Assembly: GCA_022826755.1 (NCBI GenBank)
Contig: JAJDUG010000080.1
Location: forward strand, 1-64,000
DNA from: Acidobacteriota bacterium
GTDB lineage: Bacteria; Acidobacteriota; Terriglobia; Versatilivoradales; Versatilivoraceae
Direction: 5' to 3'
DNA length: 64,000 nt
Shown: positions 1,116 through 28,417 of the stretch, piece by piece
Position numbering within the stretch: the stretch's first letter is position 1
How the letters are laid out: each line of letters begins with the position of its first letter
The notes under the pieces: model-generated
The model's input: only the letters and a program-made list of their open reading frames with translations
Told to the model about the DNA's origin: nothing
Databases searched by the model: none
Made by a program: the position numbers and the translations under genes

Positions 1116-1688
1116 ATGACCTCCCAACTGCTCACCCCCGCCAACCAGATCACCATTCTGAGGATGGCCTTCATACCGGTGTTCGTCAACCTCCTGCTCT
1201 ACAACCACCTCGGATGGGCCTTCTTCGTCTTCCTGCTGGCGGGGGTCACCGACGGCCTGGACGGCCTGATGGCCCGGTGGCTGCAGCAGAAGACCGCCCT
1301 GGGAGCCCTGCTGGATCCCATCGCCGACAAGCTGCTGTTGACCACGGCTTTCGTCGTCCTTTCGATCAAGGACATGGAGTTGCCCAACCTGATTCCCCTC
1401 TGGCTCACCATCCTGATTCTCAGCCGGGATGTGTTTCTGATCGTGAGCACTCTCATCATTCTGTTGATGACCGGTCATCGCAACTTTCCCCCCTCCGTTT
1501 ACGGCAAGGCCGCCACGCTCATTCAGATCGTCACTCTGACGCTGGTGCTGCTGTTCAACTATCTGGGGACCGCTCCCCAGTGGTTGTGGGTGCTATACCC
1601 GGCCACGGGAGCCATTACGGTCTTCTCGGGACTGCACTACATTTATCGGGGAAAGAGAATGGTTTCCGAGGGACCGGCTCCGGCCTGA
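1116..1688 (+). CDS. pgsA: CDP-alcohol phosphatidyltransferase (PgsA-like)
   Basis: This gene probably makes phosphatidylglycerophosphate from CDP-diacylglycerol and glycerol-3-phosphate, the committed step to phosphatidylglycerol in the inner membrane. The 190-residue product carries the full CAPT motif DG-x2-AR-x8-G-x3-D-x3-D (DGLMAR, then G, then DPIAD at about residues 50-75), with the metal-binding aspartates intact. About five hydrophobic segments follow. The ATG at 1116 was chosen because the first residues (TPANQITILRM) match the conserved start of PgsA proteins; the frame is open further upstream but without family similarity. Other CDP-alcohol transferases share the motif, so the exact substrate is inferred. 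Confidence 0.83.
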   Translation: MTSQLLTPANQITILRMAFIPVFVNLLLYNHLGWAFFVFLLAGVTDGLDGLMARWLQQKTALGALLDPIADKLLLTTAFVVLSIKDMELPNLIPLWLTILILSRDVFLIVSTLIILLMTGHRNFPPSVYGKAATLIQIVTLTLVLLFNYLGTAPQWLWVLYPATGAITVFSGLHYIYRGKRMVSEGPAPA

Positions 1689-1720
1689 GGCCCGCAGGAG
1701 ACTCGTTCCACCCTTCCGCC

Positions 1721-3091
1721 ATGCCCGAAAACACGTCCACTAGGGGAGTTGCCGTCGATAGGGTGGAAGCCGGCTCCATCGCACAGGAAGTGGGCATCGA
1801 ACCCGGTGACCGCCTGTTGTCCATCGACCGGCGCGCAGTGGAAGATGCCCTGGACTACCGCTACTTGAGCTCCCAGGTCGACCGGGAGCTGATTCTCACG
1901 GTGGCCAAGCAATCGGGAGAACTTTGGGATATCGAGATCGAAAAGGAAGAGGACGAAGACCTGGGTCTCGAGCTCGAGCCCATCCAGACCCGGATCTGCA
2001 AGAACAACTGCATCTTCTGCTTCGTGCACCAGTTGCCGCGCGGCAAGCAGGTTCGCCGCACCCTGAGGGTCAAGGACGAGGACTTCCGGCTCTCGTTCCT
2101 GTTCGGCCACTACCTGACCCTGACCAACCTCTCCGAAAAGGACTATCAGCGGATTTTCGAACAGCGGCTCTCACCGCTCTACGTTTCCGTTCACGCCACC
2201 GAACCCGGGCTCCGTCAATTCCTGCTGCAGAACCGCAAGCCCGACGACCTGCTGGGAAACATGCGGCGCCTGATTGAGGGCGGCATTCGGCTTCACACCC
2301 AGATCGTGTTGATGCCGGGGATCAACGACGGGGTCCACCTGGAAAGAAGCATCCGGGATCTTCTGGCATTCCACCCCCAGGTCATGACCCTGTCGATCGT
2401 CCCGGTCGGCCTGACGGACCACCGACGGGGACTGCCCCGATTGACGCCGGTTGACGCCGCCTATGCCCGCAAGACCATCTCCCACGTCTCCACCATCCAG
2501 GACCGCATTGGGGAATCCCACGGCACCCCGTTCTGTTTTCTGGGAGACGAGTTCTACATCATGGCCTCGCAGGCCATTCCGCCCCGTTCCCACTACGGGG
2601 ATTTTCCGCTGGTCGAGAACGGGGTGGGCATGGTTCGGACCTTCCTGGACGAGTTCCACCGAGAGATGGAAAGCCAGTGGGAACCTCCCACCGAGCCGAT
2701 TCGCGGGACGGTCGCAACCGGCAGGATCTTTCATCCGATCCTGCAGGACTGCATTGAACGCATGAACGCCGTTCTGGGAACCGACCTGCGCTGCGAACTG
2801 GTGGAAAACCGCTACTTCGGCGGCGGGATCACCGTGGCGGGACTGCTGACGGGCTCGGATATTTTCACCAGCCTGAGCGGCCGGGTCCATGGAGATTTCG
2901 TCGTTATCCCCTCTGAATCCATGACCGGGGAAGGCGGCCTGTTTCTGGACGACTGGGTGCGGGCAGACCTGGAGGAACGACTGGGAGTGCCCGTGCGGGG
3001 CGGCGGCTTCCACCTGAATGAATTCTTCGAGGCTGTCCTGCAGGGTGCGGGGGAAGGGATTGCGGCAAGTCCCGCCGGTTCCGGACCGTGA
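1721..3091 (+). CDS. DUF512 family protein: PDZ plus radical SAM-like iron-sulfur protein
   Basis: A 456-residue protein of the DUF512 family (PDZ-like N-terminus, Elp3/radical SAM-like core), whose role is not established. Residues 8-60 form a PDZ-like module (AGSIAQEVGIEPGDRLLSID). Residues 93-100 give C-x3-C-x2-C (CKNNCIFC), the ligand set for a 4Fe-4S cluster. The C-terminal half (RSHYGDFPLVENGVGM onward) is the DUF512 domain. It lies 32 bases after the pgsA-like gene on the same strand, so it may be co-transcribed. It ends one base before the convergent protease gene. Confidence 0.85.
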   Translation: MPENTSTRGVAVDRVEAGSIAQEVGIEPGDRLLSIDRRAVEDALDYRYLSSQVDRELILTVAKQSGELWDIEIEKEEDEDLGLELEPIQTRICKNNCIFCFVHQLPRGKQVRRTLRVKDEDFRLSFLFGHYLTLTNLSEKDYQRIFEQRLSPLYVSVHATEPGLRQFLLQNRKPDDLLGNMRRLIEGGIRLHTQIVLMPGINDGVHLERSIRDLLAFHPQVMTLSIVPVGLTDHRRGLPRLTPVDAAYARKTISHVSTIQDRIGESHGTPFCFLGDEFYIMASQAIPPRSHYGDFPLVENGVGMVRTFLDEFHREMESQWEPPTEPIRGTVATGRIFHPILQDCIERMNAVLGTDLRCELVENRYFGGGITVAGLLTGSDIFTSLSGRVHGDFVVIPSESMTGEGGLFLDDWVRADLEERLGVPVRGGGFHLNEFFEAVLQGAGEGIAASPAGSGP

Positions 3092-4470: not shown

Positions 4471-4875
4471 ATGCGGGACGACCCTTCCACCCACAGGATT
4501 TTCGGACCCCTGCTGATGGCGCTGGCCACCCTGCTGGTGACCGGCATGGTGATCTGTGTTCGCATGGTCCCCGGCCAGTTGCACCCCTTTCAACTGGCTT
4601 TCTTCCGCAACTTTTTCGGACTGGCGGCGCTGGTCGCCTGGCAGTGGGGCAGCGGCCCGGGGTTCCTGAAGACCAGCCGGCTCCGGCTTCACCTCGGCAG
4701 AGGCATCTTCAACCTGCTGGCCATGCTGGCTTTCTACTCGGCCGTATTGCTGGGTTTCCTGGTTTTCGGAGAGGTGCCCGACCGCTGGGTATGGCTGGGG
4801 GGAACCCTGATATTCCTCAGTTCCACTTACTTGGCCCTCAAGGAATCGGGGAGCTCGGAGGTCTCCGTACCTTGA
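4471..4875 (+). pseudogene. EamA/DMT transporter with internal deletion
   Basis: The 134 residues from the ATG at 4471 read like the two ends of an EamA (drug/metabolite) transporter joined together. The first 85 residues cover TM1-TM3 (PFQLAFFRNFFGLAALVAW, then NLLAMLAFYSA). The rest matches the last two helices (LLGFLVFGEVPDRWVWLGG, then FLSSTYLALKE). Family members normally have about 300 residues and ten helices, so roughly 150 residues are missing at the junction around FYSAV. The join is in frame. A working short transporter is conceivable but unlikely. The frame is open upstream to a possible start at 4426, without family similarity. Confidence 0.7.
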
Positions 4876-4976
4876 CAGAGCCGGGGCGCTCGAATGCCGT
4901 TGGCCGGCGCCTGCGCTTGTGTCAGAATGGGGACCCTTCATGGGGGGAAGTACTTGCCAAACGAGGTCGAGCGCCA

Positions 4977-5738
4977 ATGAAACTCAAGAACAAAGTCGCC
5001 ATTGTCACCGGTTCATCCCGCGGCATCGGCCGCGCCACCGCCATCGAGCTGGCCAGGAACGGCGCCGATGTCGCCGTGAATGCCTACAGCCACCCGGAGG
5101 AGGGGCGCGAAGTGGTCCGGGAAATCCAGGGGCTGGGACGCCGCTCCTTCCTTTTTCAGGGAAGCGTGGCCGATCGGGCGCAGGATGAAGCCATGGTTCG
5201 GGAGACGGTGGAGAGGTTGGGACGGCTGGACATCATGGTCGCCAACGCCGCCTACAGCATCCGCAAGCCCTTCCTCGAAATGGAGGTCGAGGAGGTGGAG
5301 AAGACCTGGGGGGTGACGCTGTGGGGCGTCTTCCATTGCTGCCAACTGGCCGCCCGCCAGATGGTGAAGCAGGGAGACGGCGGCAGTATCGCCATCGTGA
5401 GCTCGGTGCACGCCTTTCGTCCCTACGCCCTTTCCACCGCCTACAACGGCGCCAAAGCCGCCATCAACCACATGTCTGCGACCTGGGCGGCCGAACTGGC
5501 CCAATACAGGATCCGGGTGAACGTCCTGGAGCCCGGCTGGATCGACACCCCCGGAGAACGGGCCTACGCCTCGGACCAGCAGATCAAGGAACGGGGCAGC
5601 AAGCTGCTGATGGGTCGCCTGGGCACCTCCGAGGAGATGGCCAAGGCCGTCCTGTTCATGGTCTCGGAAGAGGATTCCTCTTACATGACGGGAAGCGTCC
5701 TTCGGGCGGACGGAGGATTCGTCCTGCCCAAGCCCTGA
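4977..5738 (+). CDS. Short-chain dehydrogenase/reductase (SDR)
   Basis: A 253-residue classical SDR that should use NAD(P)H to oxidise or reduce a small alcohol or ketone. The Rossmann motif TGSSRGIG is at residues 12-19 and VANAAYS takes the place of NNAG. The catalytic Ser lies in IVSSVHA, and Tyr-x3-Lys (AYNGAKAA) is intact. ADGGFVLPKP ends the protein in the usual way. The ATG at 4977 begins MKLKNKVAIVTG, the standard SDR start. The upstream frame overlaps the EamA remnant and is a shadow. A weak promoter (TTGGCC, 17-base spacer, CAGAAT at 4900-4928) may drive it. Substrate unknown. Confidence 0.87.
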   Translation: MKLKNKVAIVTGSSRGIGRATAIELARNGADVAVNAYSHPEEGREVVREIQGLGRRSFLFQGSVADRAQDEAMVRETVERLGRLDIMVANAAYSIRKPFLEMEVEEVEKTWGVTLWGVFHCCQLAARQMVKQGDGGSIAIVSSVHAFRPYALSTAYNGAKAAINHMSATWAAELAQYRIRVNVLEPGWIDTPGERAYASDQQIKERGSKLLMGRLGTSEEMAKAVLFMVSEEDSSYMTGSVLRADGGFVLPKP

Positions 5739-6055: not shown

Positions 6056-7372
6056 ATGCGGGATAAGGACCATTCCGGTCCCCGGGGAACGACTCCGGAC
6101 ACCACCGACAATCTCCCCGAGCAGCAGGAACTGGGAGAGCTGACGCCGGCCATGGAGCGCCGCAACGGCGTCCTCTTCTTCTGCTCCTACGTGCTGATCT
6201 ACCTGGCCGCGCCGGTGACCTACATCGGCATTGTCCAGGCCGCCCTGTGCGACAAGCTGGGGGCCAGCTACGCGGTTGCCAGCCTGCCGGCCTCCCTCCA
6301 CCTGCTGGGAGGGCTGGGGCCGTTGGTCTGTTCCTGGCTCATCCCCTACCGACTGGAACGGGCTACCGTCGTCTGGTCCCACGGCATCAGCACCGCCGTG
6401 CTGGCCGCGGTGGGGACCACGCTGCTGCTGCCCTTGTCCAATGCGGTCCGCATTGCGGCTCTCCTGGCCCAAGGCCTGATCCAGGGCGCTTCCAATTCGG
6501 TGGCCCACGCTTTCGGTTTCCAGTGCCTGCGCCGAGGAACCACCACGCCCGGGCGGGCCAGAATCTTCGGCATCGCCTTCGGATTCACTCCCCTGGCCGC
6601 GGTTGCCGGCTCCCTGGGAGCCCAGTTCGTTCTGAACCAGGGACTGTCCTTCCTCCCCTATCCCCTGGACTTCGCCTTCCTCTACGGCATCGGCGTGCCC
6701 TGCATGGCCACGGTCGCCTTCCTGAGCAGCCGCTACCAGCTTGTCCCGGTGAAGGAAAAGAAACAGCGTCCCCCGCTGCTGCCTTATCTCCGGCGCAGCA
6801 TCGGAGCCTTCTTCTCCTCCCGTCCACTGGCGTTGACCTGGATCGCCTACGTGCTCTGGTACTTCTCTCTCTCGTCCATGCCCAATCTCTCGCTCTACAC
6901 CAAGGTAGCCATGGGTAGGGAACCGAAGGAGTTTTCGGGACTGGTGATGGCCCTTCGCTTCGGATTCAAGTCGGTGGCCGGGTTCCTGCTGGGGGCCCTG
7001 GCCCTGCGGAGGGGAATCCGGTCGCCCGTGACCACAACGGTCTTGCTGGTGGGAGCCGGGATCGCCTGGGCCTGGCTGGTGCCGGGCTACGGCTACCTGC
7101 TTTCCTTCGGGTTGCTGGGAGCGGGAGAGCTGGGAGGAGCCTATCTTCCCAACTACGTGGTCAGCATCTCGCCGGCGGCCGAGGGAGCCCGCAACATGTC
7201 GGTCATGGCGCTGGCCCCGCTGGCTTCCAGCGTGGCTCCCGCCACCCACGGAGCCTTGACCGACGGTTTCGGATTCGCCGCCAGCTTCGCCTTCGCCATC
7301 GCCACCATCCTGGCGTCGCTCTGGCTGGTGTTCCGGCTGCCCGTCATCAGACCCGCCGAACCGAAGAATTGA
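6056..7372 (+). CDS. MFS transporter (monocarboxylate transporter-like)
   Basis: A 438-residue integral membrane protein with about twelve hydrophobic helices in two halves, joined by a charged loop near residue 235 (VPVKEKKQR). The pattern is that of a major facilitator superfamily carrier. The first 35 residues are hydrophilic and probably cytoplasmic. The ATG at 6056 is preceded by no clear Shine-Dalgarno sequence. Helix-loop motifs such as LLGGLGPLVCSWL and SNSVAHAFGF recall the monocarboxylate-porter group, but the substrate cannot be read from sequence. It is convergent with the exported protein ending at 7394. Confidence 0.78.
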   Translation: MRDKDHSGPRGTTPDTTDNLPEQQELGELTPAMERRNGVLFFCSYVLIYLAAPVTYIGIVQAALCDKLGASYAVASLPASLHLLGGLGPLVCSWLIPYRLERATVVWSHGISTAVLAAVGTTLLLPLSNAVRIAALLAQGLIQGASNSVAHAFGFQCLRRGTTTPGRARIFGIAFGFTPLAAVAGSLGAQFVLNQGLSFLPYPLDFAFLYGIGVPCMATVAFLSSRYQLVPVKEKKQRPPLLPYLRRSIGAFFSSRPLALTWIAYVLWYFSLSSMPNLSLYTKVAMGREPKEFSGLVMALRFGFKSVAGFLLGALALRRGIRSPVTTTVLLVGAGIAWAWLVPGYGYLLSFGLLGAGELGGAYLPNYVVSISPAAEGARNMSVMALAPLASSVAPATHGALTDGFGFAASFAFAIATILASLWLVFRLPVIRPAEPKN

Positions 7373-7393: not shown

Positions 7394-9157
7394 TCAGTAC
7401 TGGATGGGCGAGTCCTCGAAGTTCCGATGGAGGCGATAGTCGATGTGGCAGTCCACATCCACCACGTCGACCGGGGATTTGATCCTGGGATCTCGCTGGA
7501 CCAGGGTCACCCCCACCTGGTTGGTTCCCTTCTTGGGGTAATGATCGGGAGGCAGGTGGTATTCCAGGATGTAGCCGTAGGGCCCGACAGCCATGTTCTT
7601 CAGAACTCTGAAATGCAGATCGATGTCGTTCCTGATGGCGTCCGGCAGAGTCCGGCCATTGAGGCTGACGGCCAGCTTGTCGAGGGAGGGCTCGATGGAG
7701 GTGACCCGCACGCGCAGACGCACCGACTTGACGCGTCCCAGGGCCTGCCATGGTGACAGGTCGTCGGCCACGGCCAGGGGCAGGGTCACGGGTTTCCCCT
7801 CGGGCAATCTTTGGGGAAGGACAGGGTCCTGAATCGGGAACAAGGGCTTGGGATCGCTTGCGGCGCGATCCAGCGAGCGGACCCGATAGTTCTTGTCGGC
7901 GGTGGCCAGCAGCTCGGGCTGCCCCAGCAAGCGCAGAGTCTCGTACTCCGGCGCCGTCCAGGGCCAGCCGTTCGGGGCCCATCCTCCCGAGCTCAGACCG
8001 AACCCGTCGGCTCCCTTGTCGTAAGCCAGGGCCGCCGCCCCCCAGAGCATGGGAGCCGTGGCCGTGCTCTCCAGTTGACGCCCCAGGCGGCTGGTGATCC
8101 CCGCCAGCACCCGGCAACCGGTTCCCCGGGTCAGCCTCACGGCGGCGGACAGGTCCAGGTCCTGATCGAACAGGAGCATGTTGTTCCTGGGAGTCTCCTT
8201 CTTGTAAGGACTCATGCAGACCAGGCCGTCCACCAGTTTTTCCGTCACCCAGGTCGCCACTTCAAATCCGGGAATCCTCCACATGGAGGGGGGACCCGCG
8301 GGGATCCGAACATAGACCCGTTTCCGCCGCCCTTGCGCTTCCTCGGCCTTGCGGGCCACCTCCTTGATATCGCGGATCCACTGCGTCAGGAGGGGGGCCA
8401 GTCGAGCCACTTCGCCGAAACGGCAGAAGGGTCCGAATTCGTTGTCCAGCGAGAAATCCAACTCCACCCCGTCGGACTCGTAGCGGGTCAGCAACTCCTC
8501 GAAAATCCGGAACCGCTCACGGCGCACCTCGGCGTGGAGAAAGTTGAGCCGCCCAGTGCTGAACATGCGTCCCAGGAGCTGAGCCTGGGGGTGATCGTCC
8601 TCCCCCACGTAAAACTGGGGGTTGTCGAAGACGAAATCGGACTTCCTGCCGTAACCCCGCTCCGATTCCGCGCCTCCTCCCATGATGCAGACCGGACAGG
8701 TGGGAATGAACCAGATCCCCTTCCGGTGACAGCGCTCGGCCAAAATGCGCATGGGGTCGTTGCCGTCGGCCACCAGTTGCTTGAGGTTGCGTGAGGCGCG
8801 GTAGAAGATGGGGTGCACCCAGACATCCACGTTGTCGCCCCACAATGGGGCCACCTGGCTGCCGTACTGGACGGCGCCGCCCTCCAGTCCCGCCGAATAG
8901 AGCAGGGTGTCGACGCCGCTGTCGACCAGTTGATCCACGGCATAGGTCAGATCGGCAGCCTCCAGAGGCGGCGCGAACTGATAGAGGCCGGAATAATGGC
9001 GCCCGTCGTCGTAGAAGAAGACCCTGGGTTCACCCGCCTTCCCCTCCTCCGAGGCTCCCTGGCGCTTTGCGGCCGAGGCCGAGGCCGAGGCCGGCGGGGC
9101 CAGGACGGCGCCGGGGGCCGCCATGCCCACAGCTTGCAAGAAATGTCTGCGCTTCAT
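7394..9157 (-). CDS. Exported TIM-barrel-like protein, Tat-type signal (paralogue A)
   Basis: A 587-residue protein that starts MKRRHFLQAVGMAAPGAVLA, a twin-arginine-type signal followed by a low-complexity Ala/Ser linker. Starting at the ATG at 9157 places the Arg pair next to the N-terminus; the frame allows nine more residues. The mature part has features of a barrel hydrolase: VDTLLYSAGLEGG, RCHRKGIWFIPTCPV, RYESDGVELDFS and a long region rich in Arg and Trp. The last 150 residues look like a beta-rich domain. I do not recognise a named family; a distant link to family-10-like glycosyl hydrolases is only a guess. It is homologous along its length to the next gene upstream (9217-10905) and is last in a six-gene run. 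Confidence 0.75.
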   Translation of the reverse strand: MKRRHFLQAVGMAAPGAVLAPPASASASAAKRQGASEEGKAGEPRVFFYDDGRHYSGLYQFAPPLEAADLTYAVDQLVDSGVDTLLYSAGLEGGAVQYGSQVAPLWGDNVDVWVHPIFYRASRNLKQLVADGNDPMRILAERCHRKGIWFIPTCPVCIMGGGAESERGYGRKSDFVFDNPQFYVGEDDHPQAQLLGRMFSTGRLNFLHAEVRRERFRIFEELLTRYESDGVELDFSLDNEFGPFCRFGEVARLAPLLTQWIRDIKEVARKAEEAQGRRKRVYVRIPAGPPSMWRIPGFEVATWVTEKLVDGLVCMSPYKKETPRNNMLLFDQDLDLSAAVRLTRGTGCRVLAGITSRLGRQLESTATAPMLWGAAALAYDKGADGFGLSSGGWAPNGWPWTAPEYETLRLLGQPELLATADKNYRVRSLDRAASDPKPLFPIQDPVLPQRLPEGKPVTLPLAVADDLSPWQALGRVKSVRLRVRVTSIEPSLDKLAVSLNGRTLPDAIRNDIDLHFRVLKNMAVGPYGYILEYHLPPDHYPKKGTNQVGVTLVQRDPRIKSPVDVVDVDCHIDYRLHRNFEDSPIQY

Positions 9158-9216
9158 GGTTGGTCGCGGCCTGACGGACTCCACGGAACCGTCACGGCTG
9201 CTCCTCCTTTCTCATG

Positions 9217-10905
9217 TCAATACTCGATGGGGCGCGGCTCGAAATGCCGGTGCAGCCGGTATTCGATGGAGCAATCCACGTCCTGGATCTCGAAGAGCAG
9301 ATCCACATCCGGGTCCTTCTCAAGCAAGGTCACCTTGACCACGTTTTCTCCGGGATTTGGGTAATGCTCGGGAGACAGCCGGTACTCATAGATCTGACTG
9401 CCCTGGTAGGCCACTCCCTCTTTGACGAAGCGGTAGTTCAAGTCGGTGATCTGCAGCATGGAGTCGGGCAGCGGCTTGCCGTTGAGCTCGATGCTGAGCC
9501 GGTTGAGGGAGGGCTCCAGGTTGTTGATGCGGACCCTCAGCCTGGCGGACCTCAGCCGATCCAGGGAGTGCCAGCGCCGGAGATCGTCGGCGACCCGTAG
9601 CGGCACTTCCTGAGGCTTTCCGACCTCGAGCGGCTTGGGAAGCAGGGGATCGAAACCCGGCAGGCCCGATCCGAAAGTCCCGGGATTGCGAGGCTGGTCG
9701 CGCACATGGTAGATCTTGTCGGCGGTTTGCAACATCTCCGGAGACCCCAACGGACGCAGCGCGTCCACCATGGGCTCCAGGAAAGCCAGCCGCTGGCTTC
9801 GGACCATGTCGTTGATTCCAAAACCGGCCGCTCCCTGGTGGTAGGCGTTGGCGGCAGCCCCCCACACCAGCCTGGCGGTCGGCTTGTCGTCCCTCCGCTT
9901 CCCCAGGGTGGTAGAACACTCAACCAGAATGCGGCAGGAACTCCTTCGGGCCAGCGAAACCACCTTGGAAATGTCGATGTCCTGGTCGAAAACTTCCGGG
10001 TCGGTGGAGGCGCAGATCAGGCCGCCCACCAATCCCTCCGCAATCCAGTCGGCCACCTCCAGGCCGGCGGCTTGCCAGGCCCGGGGGTCGGCCGGGATGC
10101 GCATGTAGACCCGCTTGCGCCGGCCCTGCTCCCTCTCCGCCTTCACGGCTATGGCCTTCAGCTCCCGCAGCCACCGGGTGAGCAGGGGCGCGCATTGGCT
10201 CACCTGGTTGAAGCGGCAGATGGGGAGCACCTCCGTGTGCACCTCCACGCCGTCTGTGGTGTAACGGGCGAGCAATTCCTCGAAGATGCGGAGGCGCTCT
10301 TCCCTCACTTCGGGATGGATGAAGTTGAGCCGGACCGGGGATATGTAGCGGGCTCGCGGGTCTTCATCCTTGCCCACCCGCAAGTGGTCGCTGTCGAGCA
10401 CGAAGTCGGAGAGGCGGCCCGTGCCTCGAGCCTGCTCGGAAGCCCCGGCCCCGAGGTTGAGGTGAGCGCTGGCCAAGAAAAGCATCCCCTTTTCATGGCA
10501 GCGGTCGCAGAACAACTGGGGCCGATCCCAACCCTCGCGCACCAGTTGGCGCACATGCAGGCCGTCCCGATAGTTCACCGCATGGTTCCATTTGCGCACG
10601 TTGCTCCCATGCATTTGTCCGACTTTGGTTTCGTAAATGCACATCCCGCCGCGGGGGGCCAGTTGGAAAATGAGGGTGTTCACCGAGGTTCCGGCGACCA
10701 GGTCCACCGTCTTGGTCACGTCCGACTTGGTCAGCGGCGGCGCGATCCCCGACATGTGGTGGAAATCCTCCCGCAGGAACACGCGGGGCTCGTCCGGCGC
10801 CGCACCGTCATCCTGACGCCCGGCGGACAGGCTTCCCGCTGCTGAAACCATGGAAACGGGTGCGGCCACGCCCACCCTCTGCAGAAACCGCCTGCGATTC
10901 AGCAT
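9217..10905 (-). CDS. Exported TIM-barrel-like protein, Tat-type signal (paralogue B)
   Basis: A 562-residue paralogue of the protein at 7394-9157. It begins MLNRRRFLQRVGVAAPVSMV, a clear Tat signal. Shared blocks include EPRVF near the mature start, DRCHEKGM, RLRIFEELLARYTTDGVE, QGRRKRVYMRIPADP and a C-terminal IEYRLHRHFE/IEY ending. The conserved acidic and Arg residues at equivalent places suggest an enzyme acting in the periplasm or outside the cell, but no catalytic assignment is possible from the sequence alone. It lies 29 bases after the cupin gene and 59 bases before its paralogue, all on the minus strand. Confidence 0.75.
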   Translation of the reverse strand: MLNRRRFLQRVGVAAPVSMVSAAGSLSAGRQDDGAAPDEPRVFLREDFHHMSGIAPPLTKSDVTKTVDLVAGTSVNTLIFQLAPRGGMCIYETKVGQMHGSNVRKWNHAVNYRDGLHVRQLVREGWDRPQLFCDRCHEKGMLFLASAHLNLGAGASEQARGTGRLSDFVLDSDHLRVGKDEDPRARYISPVRLNFIHPEVREERLRIFEELLARYTTDGVEVHTEVLPICRFNQVSQCAPLLTRWLRELKAIAVKAEREQGRRKRVYMRIPADPRAWQAAGLEVADWIAEGLVGGLICASTDPEVFDQDIDISKVVSLARRSSCRILVECSTTLGKRRDDKPTARLVWGAAANAYHQGAAGFGINDMVRSQRLAFLEPMVDALRPLGSPEMLQTADKIYHVRDQPRNPGTFGSGLPGFDPLLPKPLEVGKPQEVPLRVADDLRRWHSLDRLRSARLRVRINNLEPSLNRLSIELNGKPLPDSMLQITDLNYRFVKEGVAYQGSQIYEYRLSPEHYPNPGENVVKVTLLEKDPDVDLLFEIQDVDCSIEYRLHRHFEPRPIEY

Positions 10906-10934
10906 GATGTCTCACCTTTCCCGAAAAACGGGGC

Positions 10935-11303
10935 TCAGCCGGTCTCGGCGTCGACGTCGCCGACATAGGTGTTGGACAGCTTGGCGTAGTCCTCCCGGAC
11001 CGGACTGAAGATGTCCAGCGCCCGCACCGGTCCCCCCACGGCCACGGCCTTGTGGTAGACGTTGGGGGGAACCAGGAACATCGACCCCGCCTCGCAGACC
11101 CGCGTCTGGTTTCCGATCGTCATCTTCAGCTTGCCCTCCAGCACGATCCCCCCCTGTTCGTGGGGATGGTTGTGCAGAGGCACCGTGGCGCCCTCCTCGA
11201 TCTCCAGGTAGGAGAGCATGAGATTCTTGCCGTAGGGGGTGCGGAGGCGGACTCCGGGCTGAAGCTCGAGAGCCGGAAGCTCCTGGATGTCGATAAAGGG
11301 CAT
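10935..11303 (-). CDS. Small cupin-domain protein
   Basis: A single-domain cupin of 122 residues. Motif 1 is visible as PLHNHPHEQGGIVLEGKL: two His and a Glu, plus the Gly-rich turn. Motif 2 is GSMFLVPPNVYHKAVA, with a His ligand. These residues bind a divalent metal in the beta-barrel. Proteins of this size act as isomerases, dioxygenases or sugar/ligand sensors. The ATG at 11303 starts MPFIDIQELPAL; an upstream in-frame GTG would add 31 residues with no cupin similarity, and AGGAG-like bases precede the chosen ATG. It sits between the toroid protein and paralogue B in the operon. Confidence 0.85.
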   Translation of the reverse strand: MPFIDIQELPALELQPGVRLRTPYGKNLMLSYLEIEEGATVPLHNHPHEQGGIVLEGKLKMTIGNQTRVCEAGSMFLVPPNVYHKAVAVGGPVRALDIFSPVREDYAKLSNTYVGDVDAETG

Positions 11304-11417
11304 GTCGTCTTCTCCTTCTTCAATGGTTGTGAGATTGCGGCAAAGGGAACCGAGCAGCCGAACCGCTCCTGAATCGGGACATGTCCGGACCGGCACCGAT
11401 TTTCAAACAATGATTGC

Positions 11418-12404
11418 TCAGCCGCCCAGGGCCTGGTGCACCTCGTCCAGCCAGACCACCATCTCCGCGGTGGCGTCGTTGCTGCTCATCTGGCCGAATT
11501 TCCAGCAGCCGTCCTCGGCCTGCGAGGCCAGCAGATTGTCGCCCACCCGGGCGGCCATTTCCGCGTATTTCCGCTCGCCGGTCAGGGTGTAGAGGTTGGA
11601 GGCGGCCCAGGCCACCTTGCCGGCCCGCAGGCTCTTGTAGTTGAAATCGCTGGCGATCTCGGCCAGCCTCAGGTAGTCCTTGGCCAGACGGAGCCACTCC
11701 CCCTGCCCGCTTGCCTTATACAGGTTCGCCAGAAAGCCGGCGGCGATACCGGGATGAAAGAAGTATTCGTCCCGCTCGGCAGAGGCGTTCAGCACGAAAC
11801 GGATCTCTTCCTCCGGATCGAAGTTCGATTGGAGGCCGCCCGCGCGGCTGTAGACCGAATAGAGTTGTTCCGGGTAGTTGGGCTGCAGCCCCATCAACCG
11901 CTTCATCCAGCGGCCGACCCCCAGGCTCTCCCGCATCCGGCCGGTGTAGAGGGCGGCCTGGCCCCCTCCGCTCACCACCCAGAGGTCCTGCAGGACCCGA
12001 GCGGTTCTCTGGGTAGGGCTGGAATAGAATCCGCCGCTTTCCTCATCGAAAAAGCGCAACACGAAATCCATGCCCCTTTGAGACAGGTCGAAGTGGCCCT
12101 GGCGGTGGGCTGCAATGATGACCCAGATGTTGTAGTAGATGTAGTAGTACCCGTTGGTTTCGGGCAAGCGGGGCCCGAAGTCTCCGTCCCGGCCCTGGCC
12201 GTGGCGGCGAATCCAGTCCAGCAGGCGGTTGGCCTCGGCGCTGGCCCCGCTGACCATCAAGGCCAAGGGAACCTTGTAGTAGTCCGCCAGCCCGCGATCC
12301 GGCGAACCGAAGCCCCCGTCCGGCCTCAACTGCCGCATCAGAAAGCGGCAGCCTCTGTCACGGCCTTGCCGGAAGCGGTCCTTCGACTTGGAATTCGATT
12401 CCAT
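11418..12404 (-). CDS. Alpha/alpha-toroid (terpene cyclase/prenyltransferase-like) protein
   Basis: A 328-residue soluble protein with repeated helix pairs and Gly-rich turns such as LRPDGGFGSPDRG, EESGGFYSS and AEDGCWKFGQ. This pattern is typical of (alpha/alpha)6 toroids, the fold of squalene-cyclase-like, prenyltransferase-like and some glycan lyase proteins. No DxDD cyclase motif or prenyltransferase zinc site is evident, so the activity is unknown. It lacks a signal peptide. It lies 30 bases downstream of the aldo/keto reductase gene, which suggests co-transcription and a role in the same (possibly carbohydrate) pathway; this last point is inference. Confidence 0.65.
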   Translation of the reverse strand: MESNSKSKDRFRQGRDRGCRFLMRQLRPDGGFGSPDRGLADYYKVPLALMVSGASAEANRLLDWIRRHGQGRDGDFGPRLPETNGYYYIYYNIWVIIAAHRQGHFDLSQRGMDFVLRFFDEESGGFYSSPTQRTARVLQDLWVVSGGGQAALYTGRMRESLGVGRWMKRLMGLQPNYPEQLYSVYSRAGGLQSNFDPEEEIRFVLNASAERDEYFFHPGIAAGFLANLYKASGQGEWLRLAKDYLRLAEIASDFNYKSLRAGKVAWAASNLYTLTGERKYAEMAARVGDNLLASQAEDGCWKFGQMSSNDATAEMVVWLDEVHQALGG

Positions 12405-12434
12405 GGGCGATCACCTCCGCTTGGAAGGCCTCCA

Positions 12435-13379
12435 TCAAATCAGGTCCTGCCAGTGGGTGGGATCCACCAGGTCCGGATCGGACAGCGACAGCCCAGCCAG
12501 CGCCGCCATCATCCCCTCCGGCAGCGGACCTCGGGAGAGACCGGAAACATTGGACTCCAGCTCGGCCTCATTTTTCAGTCCCATCAGGACCGACGAGATC
12601 TCCGGCAGGGAAAGGCAGAAGCGCACGGCCGCCTCGGCCAAGCCGTCCACCTCCGAGCCGAGGACCTGAAGGATCTTCGAGGCCTGCTCCCGGAGCGGAG
12701 CCAGCCTCTCGGGCAGGAAATCGATCTGAGGCGTGAGAACTCCCCGCAAGAAAACGGACCGCACAAAGACACCCACTCCCTTGCGGGCGGCCTCCGGAAA
12801 GACCCGCTGCCTCATTTTCTGGTTGAGCAGACTGAAGGGGACCTGCAGCACCTGGAACAGCGGGTCTTTCAGGGTGGCCAGGGCGTCTTCCTCCCCATAG
12901 CAGGTCGCTCCCGCCAGCCGGATTTTCCCCTGGGACCGGGCTTCCTCCAGCGAATCCCGGATGGCGGTCTCTCTCAACAGCTTCTCGGTGGCGTTGTGAA
13001 TGTAGAGCAGGTCGATGGCATCCACCTGAAGGGCACCCAGGCTGGATTCAATCGAGTGGAACACCTGGCCCCGCTGTGCAGCGGCGTCCATGTCGCTGAC
13101 CGGGTTTTCGAAGATCACCTTGCTGGAAATCCGCGGCCTGGGGGACAGGTCCTTCAGAGCCCGTCCGATCACCTCCTCGCTGTTTCCATAGGCCCGAGCC
13201 GTATCCAGCCAATTGATCCCCCGGTCCGCGGCCCGGCGGATCAGCCGGATCGAGTCCTGAATAGATGGCCGGGAATACTGAGGCGAACCTTTGAACCCGT
13301 AATCCAGCCCGATCTCGGCTGTGCCCAGAGACACCTCGGAGGCCGTAAACCCGGTATTGCCCAGCTTGCGAACTCTCAT
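12435..13379 (-). CDS. Aldo/keto reductase
   Basis: A 314-residue aldo/keto reductase. The typical start MRVRKLGNTGFTASEVSLGT is at 13379; an alternative ATG at 13397 would add six residues. The catalytic tetrad is visible: Asp and Tyr in WLDTARAYGNSEEVIG, Lys in RISSKV and His in LLYIHNATE. The (beta/alpha)8 pattern continues through LRETAIRDSLEEARSQGKI. Such enzymes reduce aldehydes, ketones or sugars with NADPH. Its position 44 bases after a cupin gene and 30 bases before the toroid gene supports a catabolic operon. Confidence 0.88.
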   Translation of the reverse strand: MRVRKLGNTGFTASEVSLGTAEIGLDYGFKGSPQYSRPSIQDSIRLIRRAADRGINWLDTARAYGNSEEVIGRALKDLSPRPRISSKVIFENPVSDMDAAAQRGQVFHSIESSLGALQVDAIDLLYIHNATEKLLRETAIRDSLEEARSQGKIRLAGATCYGEEDALATLKDPLFQVLQVPFSLLNQKMRQRVFPEAARKGVGVFVRSVFLRGVLTPQIDFLPERLAPLREQASKILQVLGSEVDGLAEAAVRFCLSLPEISSVLMGLKNEAELESNVSGLSRGPLPEGMMAALAGLSLSDPDLVDPTHWQDLI

Positions 13380-13423
13380 GGCCGGCCGCGTTCTCAAGTC
13401 CCGGCATCGCTCCGGGCTTGTTT

Positions 13424-13798
13424 CTAGCTAGCGGATTGGTCCAATTGCGGCTTGCCGAAGAAGAGGACGACTCTCAGGGGCGACGTCCCGTTGTTCTCGA
13501 AGCCGTGGGGCACCCCCGCGGGGACCAGGACGGCATCCCCGGCGGAGACCTCCACCTGGTCGTCCCCGATCCACATCCTTCCCTGACCCTGCGTAAAGTA
13601 GTAAATCTCCTCCAGGGCTCCCTCTTCCTCGTGGGTGTGGGTGCCTTCGCTGGTCCCCGGATCGAGTTCCCAGACGTGGAAGCGCGTCCCCAGACGGCTC
13701 TTGCCGTCGAAAAAGGACCGTATTCGAATGGCGCCCCGGCCCTCGTGGACACCCTCCACTCGCCGGACGCCGGATGAATCGCTTTCCTTGATAAACAT
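13424..13798 (-). CDS. Cupin-domain protein, first gene of minus-strand operon
   Basis: A 124-residue cupin. Motif 1 is EGTHTHEEEGALEEIYYFTQGQG (two His and a Glu in a conserved spacing) and motif 2 is GDAVLVPAGVPHGFEN. The core looks intact for metal binding. The ATG at 13798 (MFIKESDSSGVRRVEG) is the only sensible start; the open frame far upstream runs antisense through the DapA-family gene and is a shadow. It is the first gene after the promoter at 13834-13863, so its product may sense or process the pathway substrate. Confidence 0.85.
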   Translation of the reverse strand: MFIKESDSSGVRRVEGVHEGRGAIRIRSFFDGKSRLGTRFHVWELDPGTSEGTHTHEEEGALEEIYYFTQGQGRMWIGDDQVEVSAGDAVLVPAGVPHGFENNGTSPLRVVLFFGKPQLDQSAS

Positions 13799-13833: not shown

Positions 13834-13863
13834 ATTGTAACAGAGTGACCTCGGGAAACTCAA
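13834..13863 (-). promoter_or_regulatory. Promoter of the minus-strand cupin operon
   Basis: Reading on the minus strand, -35 TTGAGT (13863-13858), an 18-base spacer and -10 TACAAT (13839-13834). The start of transcription would fall near 13827, about 30 bases before the ATG at 13798. A second TACAAT on the plus strand (13913-13918) may serve the divergent DapA-family gene, but it has no convincing -35. Confidence 0.6.
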
Positions 13864-13954
13864 TTTGGAGGGAGCAATTGACTTCCCGCTGGCGAACCGA
13901 TTCGGATCTCCCTACAATTGAGACTTTCGTTGCCGTCAGGAACAGGAGTTGCCG

Positions 13955-14905
13955 ATGCCATTGACCAGTGACACCTTGAAAGGACTGTGGGCCGGAATGC
14001 CCGTCCCCTGGACCGCGCAGGACCAGGTGGACGAGGGGGCCTTGCGGGAGAACGTGCGGCGGATGTGCCGGGCCGGCGCCCACGGGGTCTATACCCATGG
14101 GACCACCGGAGAGTTCTACGCCCAGACTCCGGAGGAGTGGCGGCAGGTGGCGCGGGTCACGGTCGAGGAGTGCCGGCCGTTCGGAACCCCCACCCAGGTC
14201 GGATGCACCGCCCTGTGGACGGCCGAGGTCGTTCGCCGGGCCCGGTTCGCTCAAGAGATCGGAGCCGGCGGGATACAGGTGGCCTTCCCCTTCTGGCTGG
14301 CTCTTTCCGACGCCGAGGCTGTCGGATTTCTCAAGGAGGTCACCCGCCAGGCGCCCGGGATGCCGGTGATTCTCTACAACACCGGACGTGCCAAGAAACC
14401 CTTGACCCCCGACCTGCTCAAGCGCCTGCTGGATCAGGACCTGCCCTTGATCGGTTGCAAGGGAGTCAGCAGTCCGGAAGAGGCCGCCGCCTTCCTGGAC
14501 CTGGCTCCCGGGCTCAGAATCTTCGTGGGTGAAAACAGGCTGGCGGAGTGGTGGCATGCCGGGGTGCGGGGCTCCTACAGCTCCATGGTCTATGCCTGCC
14601 CCAAGCTGATGCTGCGCTATTTTCAGCTCTGCGAAGAGGGCCATCCCGAGGCAGCGGAGATCGGCCAGGGCCTGCAGCACCTCACTCGGGAGTTCGTGTT
14701 GCCTCTTGCGCAAGAGGGTTTCACCGATACCGCCTTTGACCGCACCTTTGCGGCGGCCACCGGATTCCTGACCGGGGAACTGCTTTCCAGCCGTCCTCCC
14801 TACCGCGCGGCCACCCGGAATGACGTGGACCGCTTCCGGCAAATCTGCCTGAGAGTCTTCCCGCAGTTTCTGGAGGAAAGCGCGGTTGCCGCCCGGGCCG
14901 GCTGA
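13955..14905 (+). CDS. DapA-family aldolase/lyase (dihydrodipicolinate synthase-like)
   Basis: A 316-residue (beta/alpha)8 class I aldolase or lyase. Family motifs include HGTTGEF (substrate carboxylate binding), VILYNTG with the catalytic Tyr, and LIGCKGVSS with the Schiff-base Lys. All are intact, so the protein should be active, probably on a pyruvate-linked substrate. It is more likely catabolic than lysine-biosynthetic, because no other lysine gene is near and it is divergent from a cupin/reductase operon. The ATG at 13955 is preceded by AGGAG six bases upstream, which decides against the in-frame TTG at 13949. Confidence 0.87.
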   Translation: MPLTSDTLKGLWAGMPVPWTAQDQVDEGALRENVRRMCRAGAHGVYTHGTTGEFYAQTPEEWRQVARVTVEECRPFGTPTQVGCTALWTAEVVRRARFAQEIGAGGIQVAFPFWLALSDAEAVGFLKEVTRQAPGMPVILYNTGRAKKPLTPDLLKRLLDQDLPLIGCKGVSSPEEAAAFLDLAPGLRIFVGENRLAEWWHAGVRGSYSSMVYACPKLMLRYFQLCEEGHPEAAEIGQGLQHLTREFVLPLAQEGFTDTAFDRTFAAATGFLTGELLSSRPPYRAATRNDVDRFRQICLRVFPQFLEESAVAARAG

Positions 14906-24188: not shown

Positions 24189-25667
24189 ATGAATCCCTTT
24201 CTGGAAAGCCAGCTTCTGCTCACCCGACGCCACTTTTTCGGTCTCTCCAGTTGGGGACTGGGGACAGCCGCCCTGGCATCGCTGCTGGAGGGAGACGCGG
24301 CCGCGGCCGGACCGGACCGGTCCGCTCTCCAGCCGCTACCCGGTGAGGCAGGGCTCCCGGAGCTTCCTCACTTCGCCCCCAAGGCCAAGAGAGTGATCTA
24401 CCTGTTCCAGTCGGGGGCCCCCGCTCAAATGGACCTGTTCGACCACAAGCCCGGGCTGCAGGATCGCCGCGCCCAGCAACTGCCCGATTCGGTGCGCAAG
24501 GGCCAGCGGCTCACCGGGATGACCGCCACCCAGGACAGCCTGCCCATCGCCCCCTCGATCTTCAAGTTCAACCGGCACGGCCAATCGGGAGCCTGGGTCA
24601 GCGAAATCATGTCCCATACCGCCAAGGTCGCCGATGAGCTGTGCTTCGTTCGGACCATGCGCACCGAGGCGATCAACCACGACCCGGCCATTACCTTTTT
24701 CCAGACCGGGGCCCAGTTGGCCGGCCGTCCCAGCATCGGAGCCTGGCTCTCCTATGGGCTGGGAAGTCAGAACCGGGACCTGCCCACCTTTGTGGCCATG
24801 ATCTCGCAAGGGACCGGCAAGTCGGACAGCCAGCCCCTCTACGATCGCTTGTGGGGCAGCGGCTTCCTTCCCACCCAGTACCAGGGAGTCAAGTTTCGCT
24901 CGGTGGGCGACCCGGTGCTCTACCTTTCCAATCCTCCGGGACTCTCCTCCGCCGGACGGCGCCGCTTCCTGGATGACCTCTCCCGCCTCAACCAGTTGAA
25001 GCTGAAGGATTTCGGAGACCCGGAAATCTCCACCCGCATCTCCCAGTACGAGATGGCCTATCGAATGCAGACCTCGGTTCCGGGCCTGATGGATCTGTCG
25101 AGTGAACCGGAGAGGACCTTCCAGCTCTATGGACCGGCGTCCCGAAAGCCGGGGACCTACGCCGCCAACTGTCTGCTGGCCAGAAGGCTGGTGGAACGCG
25201 GCGTGCGTTTCGTTCAGCTCTTCCATCGCGGCTGGGACCAGCACTCCAAGCTCCCCGAGCAGATCAAGGGGCAGGCCATGGATACCGACCAGCCCTCGGC
25301 GGCCCTGATCCAGGATCTGAAGGAACGAGGACTGCTGGAGGACACGCTGGTGATCTGGGGCGGCGAGTTCGGACGCACCATCTACTGCCAGGGAAAGCTC
25401 ACGGCCGACGACTACGGCCGCGATCACCATCCCCGCTGCTTTACCATCTGGATGGCGGGAGGAGGCATCAAGCCGGGGACCACTTACGGGGAAACGGACG
25501 ACTACAGCTACAACATCGTCCGCGATCCCGTCCACATCCACGACCTCCATGCCACCATCCTGCACTGCCTGGGAATCGACCACACCCGCTTGACCTTCAA
25601 GTTCCAGGGGCGTCATTTCCGGCTGACGGACGTGCACGGCAAGGTGGTGAAACCGATTCTGGCGTAA
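24189..25667 (+). CDS. DUF1501 (alkaline-phosphatase/sulfatase-like) exported protein
   Basis: A 492-residue DUF1501 protein. The N-terminus [20 protein letters not shown] is a Tat signal. The core has the sulfatase-like pattern: [72 protein letters not shown] and [15 protein letters not shown]. These conserved Asp/His residues probably bind metal. It is expected in the periplasm with its PSD1 partner, whose stop lies three bases upstream, so translation is likely coupled. Substrate unknown. Confidence 0.92.
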
Positions 25668-25734: not shown

Positions 25735-26820
25735 CTGAAGAGCAATAAACCACCATCGAGGCCGGCTTCAGAGCGACAGGCTTCCCGAAGAAGTCTTTGT
25801 AAAATGGGCGCACTGGCCCTCGGGAGCCTGGCTCTTCCCTGGGGTTGCCGTCAGCCGCCCGCCTCACCCGGCCGGCGCTGGAGTTCCACGGAGGAACTGA
25901 TCAAGGCCCTGGACGGTCCCCACAACTACCTGCCCACTCCGTTTCACGCCGACTACTCGGTGGATCTGGAGGGCCTTCGCCGCAACGTGGCCTACCACGC
26001 CGAAAGGGATCGTCTGACGGTTGTGGTCGGAGGCGGCTATGGCGAGGGCTGGAAGCTGAGCCTGGATGAGCACCGTGAGGTGGTCGCCGCCACCGTGGCC
26101 GGGGCCCGGCAGCAGATGCCGGTGATGGCGGGAGTCATCGGCGGATACAAGATATCCATTGACATGGCCGGAAATGCCGAAAAGGCCGGCGCGGATGCGC
26201 TGGTGATTTTCCCTCCCCGAGGGCGACACTGGCGTGCTGAAAACTACTACGAATTCTACAGGGACATCATTGCTTCGGTCTCCATCGGCGCCGTCATCCT
26301 CCCCAGTGGCCAACACGATTTCTGGCCGGAGGTGCTCATCCGATTGGCCGAGATCCCCAACATGATCGGATTCTTCCCCTCTCTGGGCGCGGATGAGGAC
26401 TACTATCCCAGGACCGGGGGACAGATTCTGGAGGCCGTTGCCAAGCCCCTGCTGTTCATGGCGGAGAACGAGCCGGCCGCCTCCCGTTCATTTTCCCGGG
26501 GAAGCCGCGCCTACTCCACGGCGGCGGCCGCACTGGTTCCGGAGGCTTCCAGGCGCTTCTGGAAGCACGGAGTGGCCGGAGAGGCCGCCAAGATGGAGGA
26601 AGTGCTGAAAACCGAGGTGGACCCCATTCTCAAGATCCGCGGCTACAAGCCGGGGTACGGCATCAGCGGCATCAAGGTGGCCATGGAAGCCTTGGGAAGG
26701 GCCGGGGGACCTGTACGTCCACCCGGCACCCAGGTGGATGCGGGAGATCGGGCGGGCATCGCCGAGATCCTGAAGAAGCATCCCGAAACCCGCGGCCTAG
26801 TGGTCGAGGACTTTACCTGA
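25735..26820 (+). CDS. Tat-exported DapA-like protein lacking the Schiff-base Lys; probable CTG start
   Basis: The body is a DapA-family (beta/alpha)8 protein (NYLPTPFHADYSVDLEGLRRN, VVVGGGYGEGW, LPVMAGV-like strand). Where active members have Tyr (LYN) and Lys (GIKxS) it reads VILPSGQ and MIGFFPS, so no Schiff base can form. The first ATG is at 25804, with no ribosome site, and leaves only half a signal peptide. The frame is open to 25726 and contains CTG at 25735, preceded by AAGGA with a six-base gap. Starting there adds 23 residues ending SRRSLCKMG, a good twin-arginine motif before the hydrophobic stretch and a Cys (LPWGC). The start is therefore inferred, 361 residues versus 338 from the ATG. 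Confidence 0.7.
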   Translation: MKSNKPPSRPASERQASRRSLCKMGALALGSLALPWGCRQPPASPGRRWSSTEELIKALDGPHNYLPTPFHADYSVDLEGLRRNVAYHAERDRLTVVVGGGYGEGWKLSLDEHREVVAATVAGARQQMPVMAGVIGGYKISIDMAGNAEKAGADALVIFPPRGRHWRAENYYEFYRDIIASVSIGAVILPSGQHDFWPEVLIRLAEIPNMIGFFPSLGADEDYYPRTGGQILEAVAKPLLFMAENEPAASRSFSRGSRAYSTAAAALVPEASRRFWKHGVAGEAAKMEEVLKTEVDPILKIRGYKPGYGISGIKVAMEALGRAGGPVRPPGTQVDAGDRAGIAEILKKHPETRGLVVEDFT

Positions 26821-26896: not shown

Positions 26897-27940
26897 ATGG
26901 TAACCAAGACAGCCGGCGAGCTTCGCCGGTTGACCCGACAGATTCTGGAAGCGGCCGGCGCCGTCCCCGACCAGGCCGAGATCGTGGCCGACCATCTGGT
27001 CCTGGCCAACCTGCGTGGTGTGGACTCCCACGGCGTCTGGCACATCCAGGGCTATGTGCAGGCCATCCGGGACGGACACATCCGCGTCGCGGCGGAGCCG
27101 AAGATCGCCCGCGAGACACCGGCCAGCGCTCTGGTCCAGGGGGACTGGGCCTTCGGACACGTGGTGGGGCGTTTCGCCATGCAGGCAGCCATTGAAAGAG
27201 CCGGGAACCAGGGTTTGTCAGTCGTCTCCCTGGTTCAAACCCACCACATCGGCCGACTGGGGCACTACGCGGAAATGGCCGCGGCAGAGGGCATGGTCTC
27301 GATGGTCTGGGCGGGCGGACAGGGCGCTGAAAAACCGGCTGCCGTCCCCTTTGGAGGACGCAAGCCCCTGTTCCATACCAACCCCATCGCCATGGGTCTG
27401 CCCATGGGAAGCCAGGCCCCCGTCATCATCGATTTCGCCACCTCGGCCACCGCCGGTGTCAAAGTGATCAACGCCTTCAACCGGAACCAGCCGCTTCCCT
27501 CCGATTCCGTCGTGGACAAGGACGGGAACCCAACCACCGACCCCCGGAAGTTCATGGACGGGGGCGCCCACCTGCCCTTCGGCGGCCACAAGGGCTATGC
27601 CTTGATGCTGGCCACCGAGATGCTGGGCAGGACTTTCAGCGGGGCCGACGACGGAGCCGAGCTCGACTATTCCGACCCTCTCTTCCGACGCCACGGCGCC
27701 ACCCTGATCGCCTTCCGGGCCGATCTCTTCCAGCCTCTGTCCCAATACAGCCAGCGCGCCGACGAGCTGGCCCGCCGAGCCCTGGCCGTTCCGCCCGCCC
27801 CCGGCTTCAAGGAGGTCCTGCTGCCCGGAGTGCCCGAGGACCGAACCCAGCAGGTCCGCCAGCGCGACGGCATTCCCATTGCCGACGACATCTGGCAGAC
27901 CATCGTCCAGGCAGCCTCCTCGGTGGGTGTGCAGGCCTGA
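26897..27940 (+). CDS. Malate/L-lactate dehydrogenase family (Ldh_2) oxidoreductase
   Basis: A 347-residue NAD(P)-dependent 2-hydroxyacid dehydrogenase of the Ldh_2 family (malate, L-lactate, ureidoglycolate and similar), unrelated to classical lactate dehydrogenases. Family motifs are ANLRGVDSHGVWH (catalytic His), VVSLVQTHHIGRLGHYAE, MVWAGGQG, PLFHTNPIAMG and FGGHKGYALMLATEML. Length is normal. The ATG at 26897 lies 76 bases after the DapA-like gene, so both may be read together. Substrate cannot be assigned. Confidence 0.88.
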   Translation: MVTKTAGELRRLTRQILEAAGAVPDQAEIVADHLVLANLRGVDSHGVWHIQGYVQAIRDGHIRVAAEPKIARETPASALVQGDWAFGHVVGRFAMQAAIERAGNQGLSVVSLVQTHHIGRLGHYAEMAAAEGMVSMVWAGGQGAEKPAAVPFGGRKPLFHTNPIAMGLPMGSQAPVIIDFATSATAGVKVINAFNRNQPLPSDSVVDKDGNPTTDPRKFMDGGAHLPFGGHKGYALMLATEMLGRTFSGADDGAELDYSDPLFRRHGATLIAFRADLFQPLSQYSQRADELARRALAVPPAPGFKEVLLPGVPEDRTQQVRQRDGIPIADDIWQTIVQAASSVGVQA

Positions 27941-28056
27941 GTGTTCGCCAATCCCTCCGTATTCGACCTGAGCTTCCATGGCCCGCCGTGGTTGCGCCCA
28001 AGCGCAATGCAGTAGCGGTTTTCGGGATCGAAAGAGGAGCGAATTGGGCAATAACG

Positions 28057-28109
28057 TTGGCCGCCCCCTACTCTGGTCGATAGAATAAAGCCCTGTTCCG
28101 GCACAGGGC
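28057..28109 (+). promoter_or_regulatory. hicBA promoter with overlapping palindrome
   Basis: -35 TTGGCC (28057-28062), 18-base spacer, -10 TAGAAT (28081-28086). Just downstream, 28090-28109 is the inverted repeat GCCCTGT-N6-ACAGGGC, which would overlap the start of transcription. Toxin-antitoxin operons are usually repressed by binding to such palindromes. The repeat could instead be a weak terminator of the upstream gene, as no T run follows. The rest of the 264-base gap 27941-28204 shows nothing else. Confidence 0.45.
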
Positions 28110-28204
28110 ACTCCTTCATCCAGTCCCTGGCCGTGTGCCCCCTACGGCGGCTCGCCCCGGAAGCTCTCAGTCCGGGACAGATCCAAAGAAGAGGTCTCCG
28201 TACC

Positions 28205-28414
28205 ATGAAAGAATACACGGCAGTCGTCGAACAAGACCCTGAGACTGGCCTCTACGTGGGTTACATCCCCGGATTCCCTGGAGCCCACTCCCAAGCCGAC
28301 ACGCTGGATGAGCTCAACACAAACCTTCGCGAAGTGGTGGAAATGCTCTTGGAAGATGGAGAGCCCCTGCTTGAAGGAAAGTTTGTCGGCACTCAACGAG
28401 TCGCTCTCCCCTGA
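28205..28414 (+). CDS. hicB: HicB-like antitoxin (short form)
   Basis: A 69-residue HicB/UPF0150 protein with the degenerate RNase H-like fold: YTAVVEQDPETGLYVGYIPGFPGAHSQADT, then LDELNTNLREVVEMLLED. It should bind and neutralise the HicA toxin encoded three bases downstream. Length is that of the short HicB type, with no C-terminal DNA-binding domain visible, which is notable given the palindrome at the promoter. The start at 28205 follows AGAAGAGG about ten bases upstream; the longer frame upstream has no HicB similarity. Confidence 0.88.
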   Translation: MKEYTAVVEQDPETGLYVGYIPGFPGAHSQADTLDELNTNLREVVEMLLEDGEPLLEGKFVGTQRVALP

Positions 28415-28417
28415 ATC

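Follow-up and report, generated by a model that had tools for sequence, protein, structure and literature searches.

Six closely spaced genes on the minus strand (7394–13798) and a divergent DapA-family gene are found in a 64,000-nucleotide stretch of DNA from an Acidobacteriota bacterium (contig JAJDUG010000080.1, positions 1–64,000; hereafter the window). They raise the question of which pathway combines two exported proteins (X1, X2), two cupins (CUP1, CUP2), an aldo/keto reductase (AKR) and a helical protein (TOR). With chances that we consider about even, the operon serves glycan catabolism, GH156-like hydrolases freeing a non-sialic sugar outside the cell that is then broken down in the cytoplasm. 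The open reading frames (ORFs) were found at the place and strand assigned to them by an earlier sequence-only reading, with gaps of ~30–115 bases. The host genome (G000) comprises 4.6 Mb and resembles a metagenome-assembled genome (MAG). Its closest named relatives are Terriglobia/Acidobacteria MAGs, including Candidatus Versatilivorator vitaminiformans, and also pelagic ALOHA_A2.0_1; to judge from titles and isolate names of relatives, the host is probably a marine, sponge-associated bacterium.

Kinship of the exported proteins to GH156

X1 (7394–9157, minus strand, 587 aa; alternative GTG start possible at 9184) and X2 (9217–10905, minus strand, 562 aa) both begin with what we take, from its general pattern, to be a twin-arginine motif (KRRHFLQ and NRRRFLQ in the two proteins), so that export via the twin-arginine translocation (Tat) system, as suggested by the sequence-only reading, is putative. 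The same reading had regarded both proteins as unrecognised. Profile search and fold comparison revise this view, X1 and X2 being plainly relatives of GH156, a small, recently defined sialidase family of glycoside hydrolases (GH) with an unusual Asp/His mechanism. A profile of 25 X-family sequences matched the inverting exosialidase EnvSia156 (ORF12p, PDB 6rzd) with E 8e-42, followed by Cwp19 with E 6.6e-5, and single-sequence searches at E 0.1 or better returned EnvSia156 as the sole PDB match (X1, 8.5e-11; X2, 1.7e-7). The homology spans the barrel as well as the beta-sandwich. In agreement, the predicted structure of X2, modelled as proposed by the sequence-only reading, displays the GH156 architecture of a (beta/alpha)8 barrel with a C-terminal beta-sandwich, at a predicted local distance difference test (pLDDT) score of only 55.9. 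Best PDB match of this model by Foldseek was GH156 (E 1.6e-23, both domains); alignment with GH156 by VIA-align 2 yielded a Z of 23.6 over 404 residues at a root mean square deviation of 7.5, the next family (Z 21.8) covering the barrel only.

Pfam provided only sub-threshold GHL10 matches for X1 and X2 (scores 14.7 and 20.1 vs a curated cut-off of 27.9). Across the 25 X-family members, the uncharacterised glycosyl-hydrolase-like families GHL10 and GHL6 were matched at E 0.01 or better by 13 and 2, respectively, and NCBIfam held no family for any of them. This alignment is a non-random selection, drawn from the best matches in G000, G007 and G008 plus locus L033. From 27 candidate places at the start, four were left out as partial or uncertain (L035:4480-5562, L039:30-1130, L044:9548-10840 and L045:7185-9302), and L049 was omitted as identical with L033. 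A whole-genome search of G000 with the X-family profile gave 47 matches, merged to 43 loci, 17 of them at E < 1e-130. At E 1e-20 the profile was matched in only 4 of 297 sampled genomes of the phylum, indicating a lineage-specific expansion. A literature search for GH156 with sponge returned nothing on this subject, as judged from titles and beginnings of abstracts.

Several X-family paralogues adjoin DUF1501 (PF07394) genes, of which the genome harbours an unusual expansion (52 hits in 4.6 Mb) weakly linked to GH156-like genes. A partnership between both families was dropped: the X loci with a DUF1501 gene at a distance of no more than 5 kb number 11 of 43, compared with ~6 expected, and for the core copies the figures are 4 of 17 and 2.4. 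A stop within one paralogue (G000:C20) was considered as selenoprotein or readthrough site and rejected: the reading terminates normally at residue 528, and the match simply continues beyond the stop. At L042 and L095/L096, GH156-like genes adjoin Tat-type exported GFO_IDH_MocA oxidoreductases, accompanied at L095 by a fused cupin-SGL lactonase-like lipoprotein. Near the X2 orthologue at L046 (G007 C9), two apparently exported enzymes of the Tat type are encoded, a DHDPS-family protein and an aldo/keto reductase.

Active-site residues and the C-terminal tail

In EnvSia156, Asp14 is the base and His134 the acid, Arg129, Arg202 and Asn346 holding the carboxylate of sialic acid, according to PMC6811678. 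Asp14 is kept in 24 of the 25 X-family members (Glu in one), with Asp51 in X1 and Asp47 in X2 as equivalents; Glu186 and Glu197 are kept in all 25, and the buried Arg246 in nearly all, including X1 and X2. Unlike EnvSia156, X1 and X2 possess neither His134 nor Arg129, Arg202 or Asn346, and these residues are rare throughout the alignment (1, 3, 2 and 2 of 25, respectively). The His134 column holds Ala in X2 and Gly in X1, the loop alignment being uncertain by a residue or two, and the columns of Arg129/Arg202/Asn346 hold His/Glu/Asp in X2 and Pro/Glu/Ser in X1. Judged by sequence comparison, both proteins thus lack the acid and the carboxylate triad of GH156 and are nevertheless related to this family. 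With the carboxylate-holding residues absent from the -1 pocket, X1 and X2 would each remove a different, non-sialic terminal sugar.

GH156 being the nearest characterised family, one may alternatively assume that X1 and X2 are sialidases in which a carboxylate site has evolved anew, acting in catabolism of sialic or other nonulosonic acids together with an N-acetylneuraminate-lyase-like DapA-type aldolase and with TOR as epimerase or aldolase of an N-acyl-aminosugar. The presumed habitat agrees with this assumption, since the sponge mesohyl carries sialic-acid-linked residues and sponge MAGs are GH33-enriched, as stated in PMC8163846. We nevertheless hold it to be rather unlikely: all four sialidase residues are missing from X1 and X2, and two divergent paralogues of the host genome, L045:9083-10666 (C20) and L039:4802-6466 (C80), keep Arg129, Arg202 and Asn346, the former also His134. 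Both paralogues group with EnvSia156 (support 97/94, the branches of EnvSia156 and L039:4802 being long) and appear as better candidates for the true sialidases of this bacterium.

X1 and X2 fall into a separate clade of 15 members (support 100/100). All 15 carry a Tyr directly before the stop, within the motif HRHFExxPxxY or a close variant (X1, HRNFEDSPIQY-stop; X2, HRHFEPRPIEY-stop), contrasting with none of the ten other members. At the DNA level, the pattern FExxPxxY-stop occurs six times in G000, always in genes of this clade, vs no occurrence in the reversed control. An ending so strictly kept hints at a role of the terminus as such, e.g., in the pocket or in a dimer groove; in the X2 model the tail is of low confidence.

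The exact terminal motif in 15 of 15 members, together with the loss of His134 and of the substrate-binding residues, would also be compatible with secreted glycan-binding or scaffolding pseudoenzymes, the tail serving as a partner-binding signal. This possibility is very doubtful in view of the strong purifying selection and the conservation of Asp14, Glu186, Glu197 and Arg246 in nearly all members, X1 and X2 included. Moreover, the confinement of FExxPxxY-stop to clade members in their own genome argues against a general sorting signal. The genome contains ~43 loci of the wider GH156 superfamily, most aligned members being devoid of the sialidase residues. Should these proteins be active, the range of the family would extend far beyond sialic acid, and blanket annotation as sialidases would be wrong.

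Presumed cytoplasmic enzymes, conservation and proposed route

AprG, a biosynthetic aldolase, uses an N-acetyl-aminosugar as donor of a two-carbon unit. A profile of TOR (11418–12404, minus strand, 328 aa) matched AprG over its full length (E 1.9e-29; PDB 9lfi, 9c95), so that TOR is, by profile comparison, a distant relative of this protein. AprG shares with TOR the residues Tyr43-Lys44, Asn92, His100, Asp140, Lys263, Asp310 and Glu314; in an alignment of AprG with 12 TOR relatives, Lys263 is invariant (13/13), followed by Tyr43 and Glu314 (12/13 each) and Lys44 (10/13). Differences concern the catabolic-looking context of TOR, in which no aminoglycoside genes were seen nearby, and the low pairwise similarity. 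According to PMC11033246, AprG makes the octose core of apramycin and yields a 7'-N-acetyl product, the latter in line with the sialic-acid alternative. The kinship to an aldolase also suggests that aldol chemistry may reside in TOR as well as in the DapA-type enzyme. TOR relatives are present in 5 of the 297 sampled phylum genomes and in 10 of 14 selected genomes, in neighbourhoods mostly unlike the operon.

The other enzymes of the set (AKR, the cupins and the aldolase of the DapA type) are unremarkable members of their superfamilies and possess the catalytic residues; for AKR and the cupins, Pfam agrees with the sequence-only reading. AKR (12435–13397 or 12435–13379, minus strand; PF00248, E 2e-36) contains Asp59, Tyr64, Lys87 and His128, presumably the catalytic tetrad, invariant in 7/7 sequences. 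The divergent gene (13949–14905, plus strand; PF00701, E 1.7e-23) encodes, as that reading had it, a DapA-family protein, i.e., a member of the dihydrodipicolinate synthase/N-acetylneuraminate lyase (DHDPS/NAL) superfamily, which comprises DapA, NanA, KdgD and hydratase-aldolases. GTTGE, Tyr141 and Lys169, which we take to be the Schiff-base lysine, are invariant in 6/6 sequences. Finer assignment was not achieved for either enzyme: the aldolase matched several branches alike (best PDB E 2.7e-17 to 1e-15), PDB profiles singled out no branch for AKR, and a PDB profile search with strict cut-off found nothing for both. Membership of N-acetylneuraminate lyase in the same superfamily is in line with sialic-acid catabolism; with 47.6 bits, however, the locus enzyme stays far below the nanA cut-off of 382, and other branches score at least as well.

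CUP1 (10935–11303, minus strand, 122 aa; PF07883, E 5.8e-16), in which metal-ligand histidines are present as judged by eye, and CUP2 (13424–13798, minus strand, 124 aa; PF07883, E 3.1e-20), encoded by the first gene of the operon, are single-domain cupins. The weak score of CUP2 with KduI (E 0.022), the approximately equal scores of the DapA-type enzyme with 5-dehydro-4-deoxyglucarate dehydratase and dapA, and sub-threshold Pfam matches of TOR to pectate-lyase-2 and GH127 may hint at a uronate-type route. There, X1 and X2 would set free a uronic acid, saturated or unsaturated, KdgF/KduI-like cupins and AKR as reductase would follow, and the DapA-type enzyme would act as 2-keto-3-deoxygluconate (KDG)-type aldolase or dehydratase. 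Such a route is quite unlikely, as all these scores remain far below cut-offs, and the Pfam-tested neighbours (10 + 10 ORFs, some on the non-coding strand) yielded neither a polysaccharide lyase nor GH88/105 nor a KDG kinase.

All six operon genes are real and under purifying selection: compared with three close relatives, ratios of nonsynonymous to synonymous substitution rates range from 0.025 to 0.23 across these genes and the DapA-family gene. The order TOR-CUP1-X2-X1 is contiguous in 7/7 relatives with a close X2 (L010-L016; genomes G001-G006 and G008), and the complete six-gene set occurs in the same order at all six longer loci (L029-L034, located via X2), mostly in the same genomes as the shorter ones. 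The DapA-family gene is present at five of the six, the sixth locus ending at a contig edge. At L033, from a genome of another genus (G008), operon and DapA-family gene are kept with proteins 64–77 % identical and synonymous sites saturated, the flanks lacking the peptidase, transporter and close dehydrogenase/reductase genes of the window. The idea that these genes are conserved together in no relative is thereby excluded. X2 was not found in G009-G011 of the same family, G010 providing one weak match.

The major facilitator superfamily (MFS) transporter encoded convergently with the operon (6056–7372, plus strand) is a candidate importer on the basis of Pfam and of its neighbourhoods elsewhere. 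Homologues at E 1e-50 exist in 13 of 299 genomes of the class. At 3 of 10 loci outside the genus (G043, G381 and G491; ~0.5 expected), a DHDPS-family gene lies within 10 kb of the MFS gene, and at a fourth (G007 C37) at 11 kb; the homologue at G007 C175 adjoins a GH156-like gene. In another family, the MFS gene, a DHDPS-family gene and an AKR relative (39.6 %) lie within ~10 kb together with two exported BNR_2 genes (L101; G043 C1:342000-361900). The propeller-type, sialidase-like BNR_2 proteins would fit degradation of sialic acid; against this counts that BNR_2 also covers non-sialidases.

From the observed gene order, conservation, homologies and residue losses and retentions, we infer hydrolase activity, a non-sialic substrate, import and the following order of steps for glycan catabolism. 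X1 and X2, exported via Tat, would act as exo-glycoside hydrolases on an external glycan by an inverting mechanism in which the conserved Asp, at position 47 in X2 and 51 in X1, serves as general base. The monomer would be imported, possibly by the adjacent MFS transporter, and isomerised or ring-opened by the cupins in the cytoplasm. TOR may catalyse an epimerisation or (retro)aldol step via its invariant lysine, AKR may oxidise or reduce an aldehyde, and the DapA-type enzyme may cleave or dehydrate a 2-keto-3-deoxy acid to pyruvate and an aldehyde. The general idea of the sequence-only reading, an exported step followed by cytoplasmic oxidation/reduction and aldol cleavage, is retained in this route, the genes being kept together; its details change insofar as the exported proteins are recognisable and aldol chemistry is perhaps also located in TOR.

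Several points weigh against glycan catabolism as proposed. Without the general acid His134, X1 and X2 may no longer be capable of hydrolysis, and confidence in the X2 model is modest. AprG is biosynthetic, the AlphaFold2 model of TOR (pLDDT 46.3) is too poor for fold search, so that the toroid fold named by the sequence-only reading stays putative, and TOR paralogues elsewhere adjoin other enzymes, e.g., of the short-chain dehydrogenase/reductase (SDR)-like type, rather than GH156-like genes. In G007, relatives of X2, X1, TOR and the DapA-type enzyme are scattered over different contigs, and a search for a close AKR at E 1e-60 gave none; the gene set is therefore not indivisible. The three MFS-DapA loci stem from one family (f5) and are not independent, because their DapA genes are related (63–65 %). 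Finally, no binding protein or known sugar-pathway marker was seen that fixes the substrate.

Tentatively, and with the chances leaning against it, one may go further and speculate that X1 and X2 belong to a new GH clade sister to GH156. This clade would have been remodelled off sialic acid, with an obligatory C-terminal Tyr (HRHFExxPxxY-COOH) that folds back to occupy the active site or the interface of a dimer, and would feed an undescribed sugar pathway with a catabolic AprG-type toroid aldolase. Apart from this speculation, the operon offers a compact seven-enzyme set for substrate discovery and places AprG-like proteins in a catabolic context.

Promoter region and neighbouring genes

The sequence-only reading had placed a promoter at 13834–13863 (minus strand) in front of the operon. 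This assignment is not upheld, the single site found equalling the mean of 1.0 in shuffled sequence; the promoter-like site is visible in four aligned members of the genus and absent from the fifth row (L033). An SDR gene (4869–5738, plus strand) next to the MFS gene is possibly accessory, and in G008 both genes are paired at a separate locus (L102).

A second DHDPS-family gene (25804–26820, plus strand) is located between a DUF1501 gene (24189–25667) and an Ldh_2 dehydrogenase gene (26897–27940). Its product has a lipoprotein-like start (LPWGC) and no Lys at the expected Schiff-base position. The DNA at 28001–32000 has a G+C content of 0.55–0.58, compared with ~0.63 in most of the window, and was possibly acquired. 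A DUF512/radical-SAM protein with a PDZ domain is encoded at 1214–3091 (plus strand).

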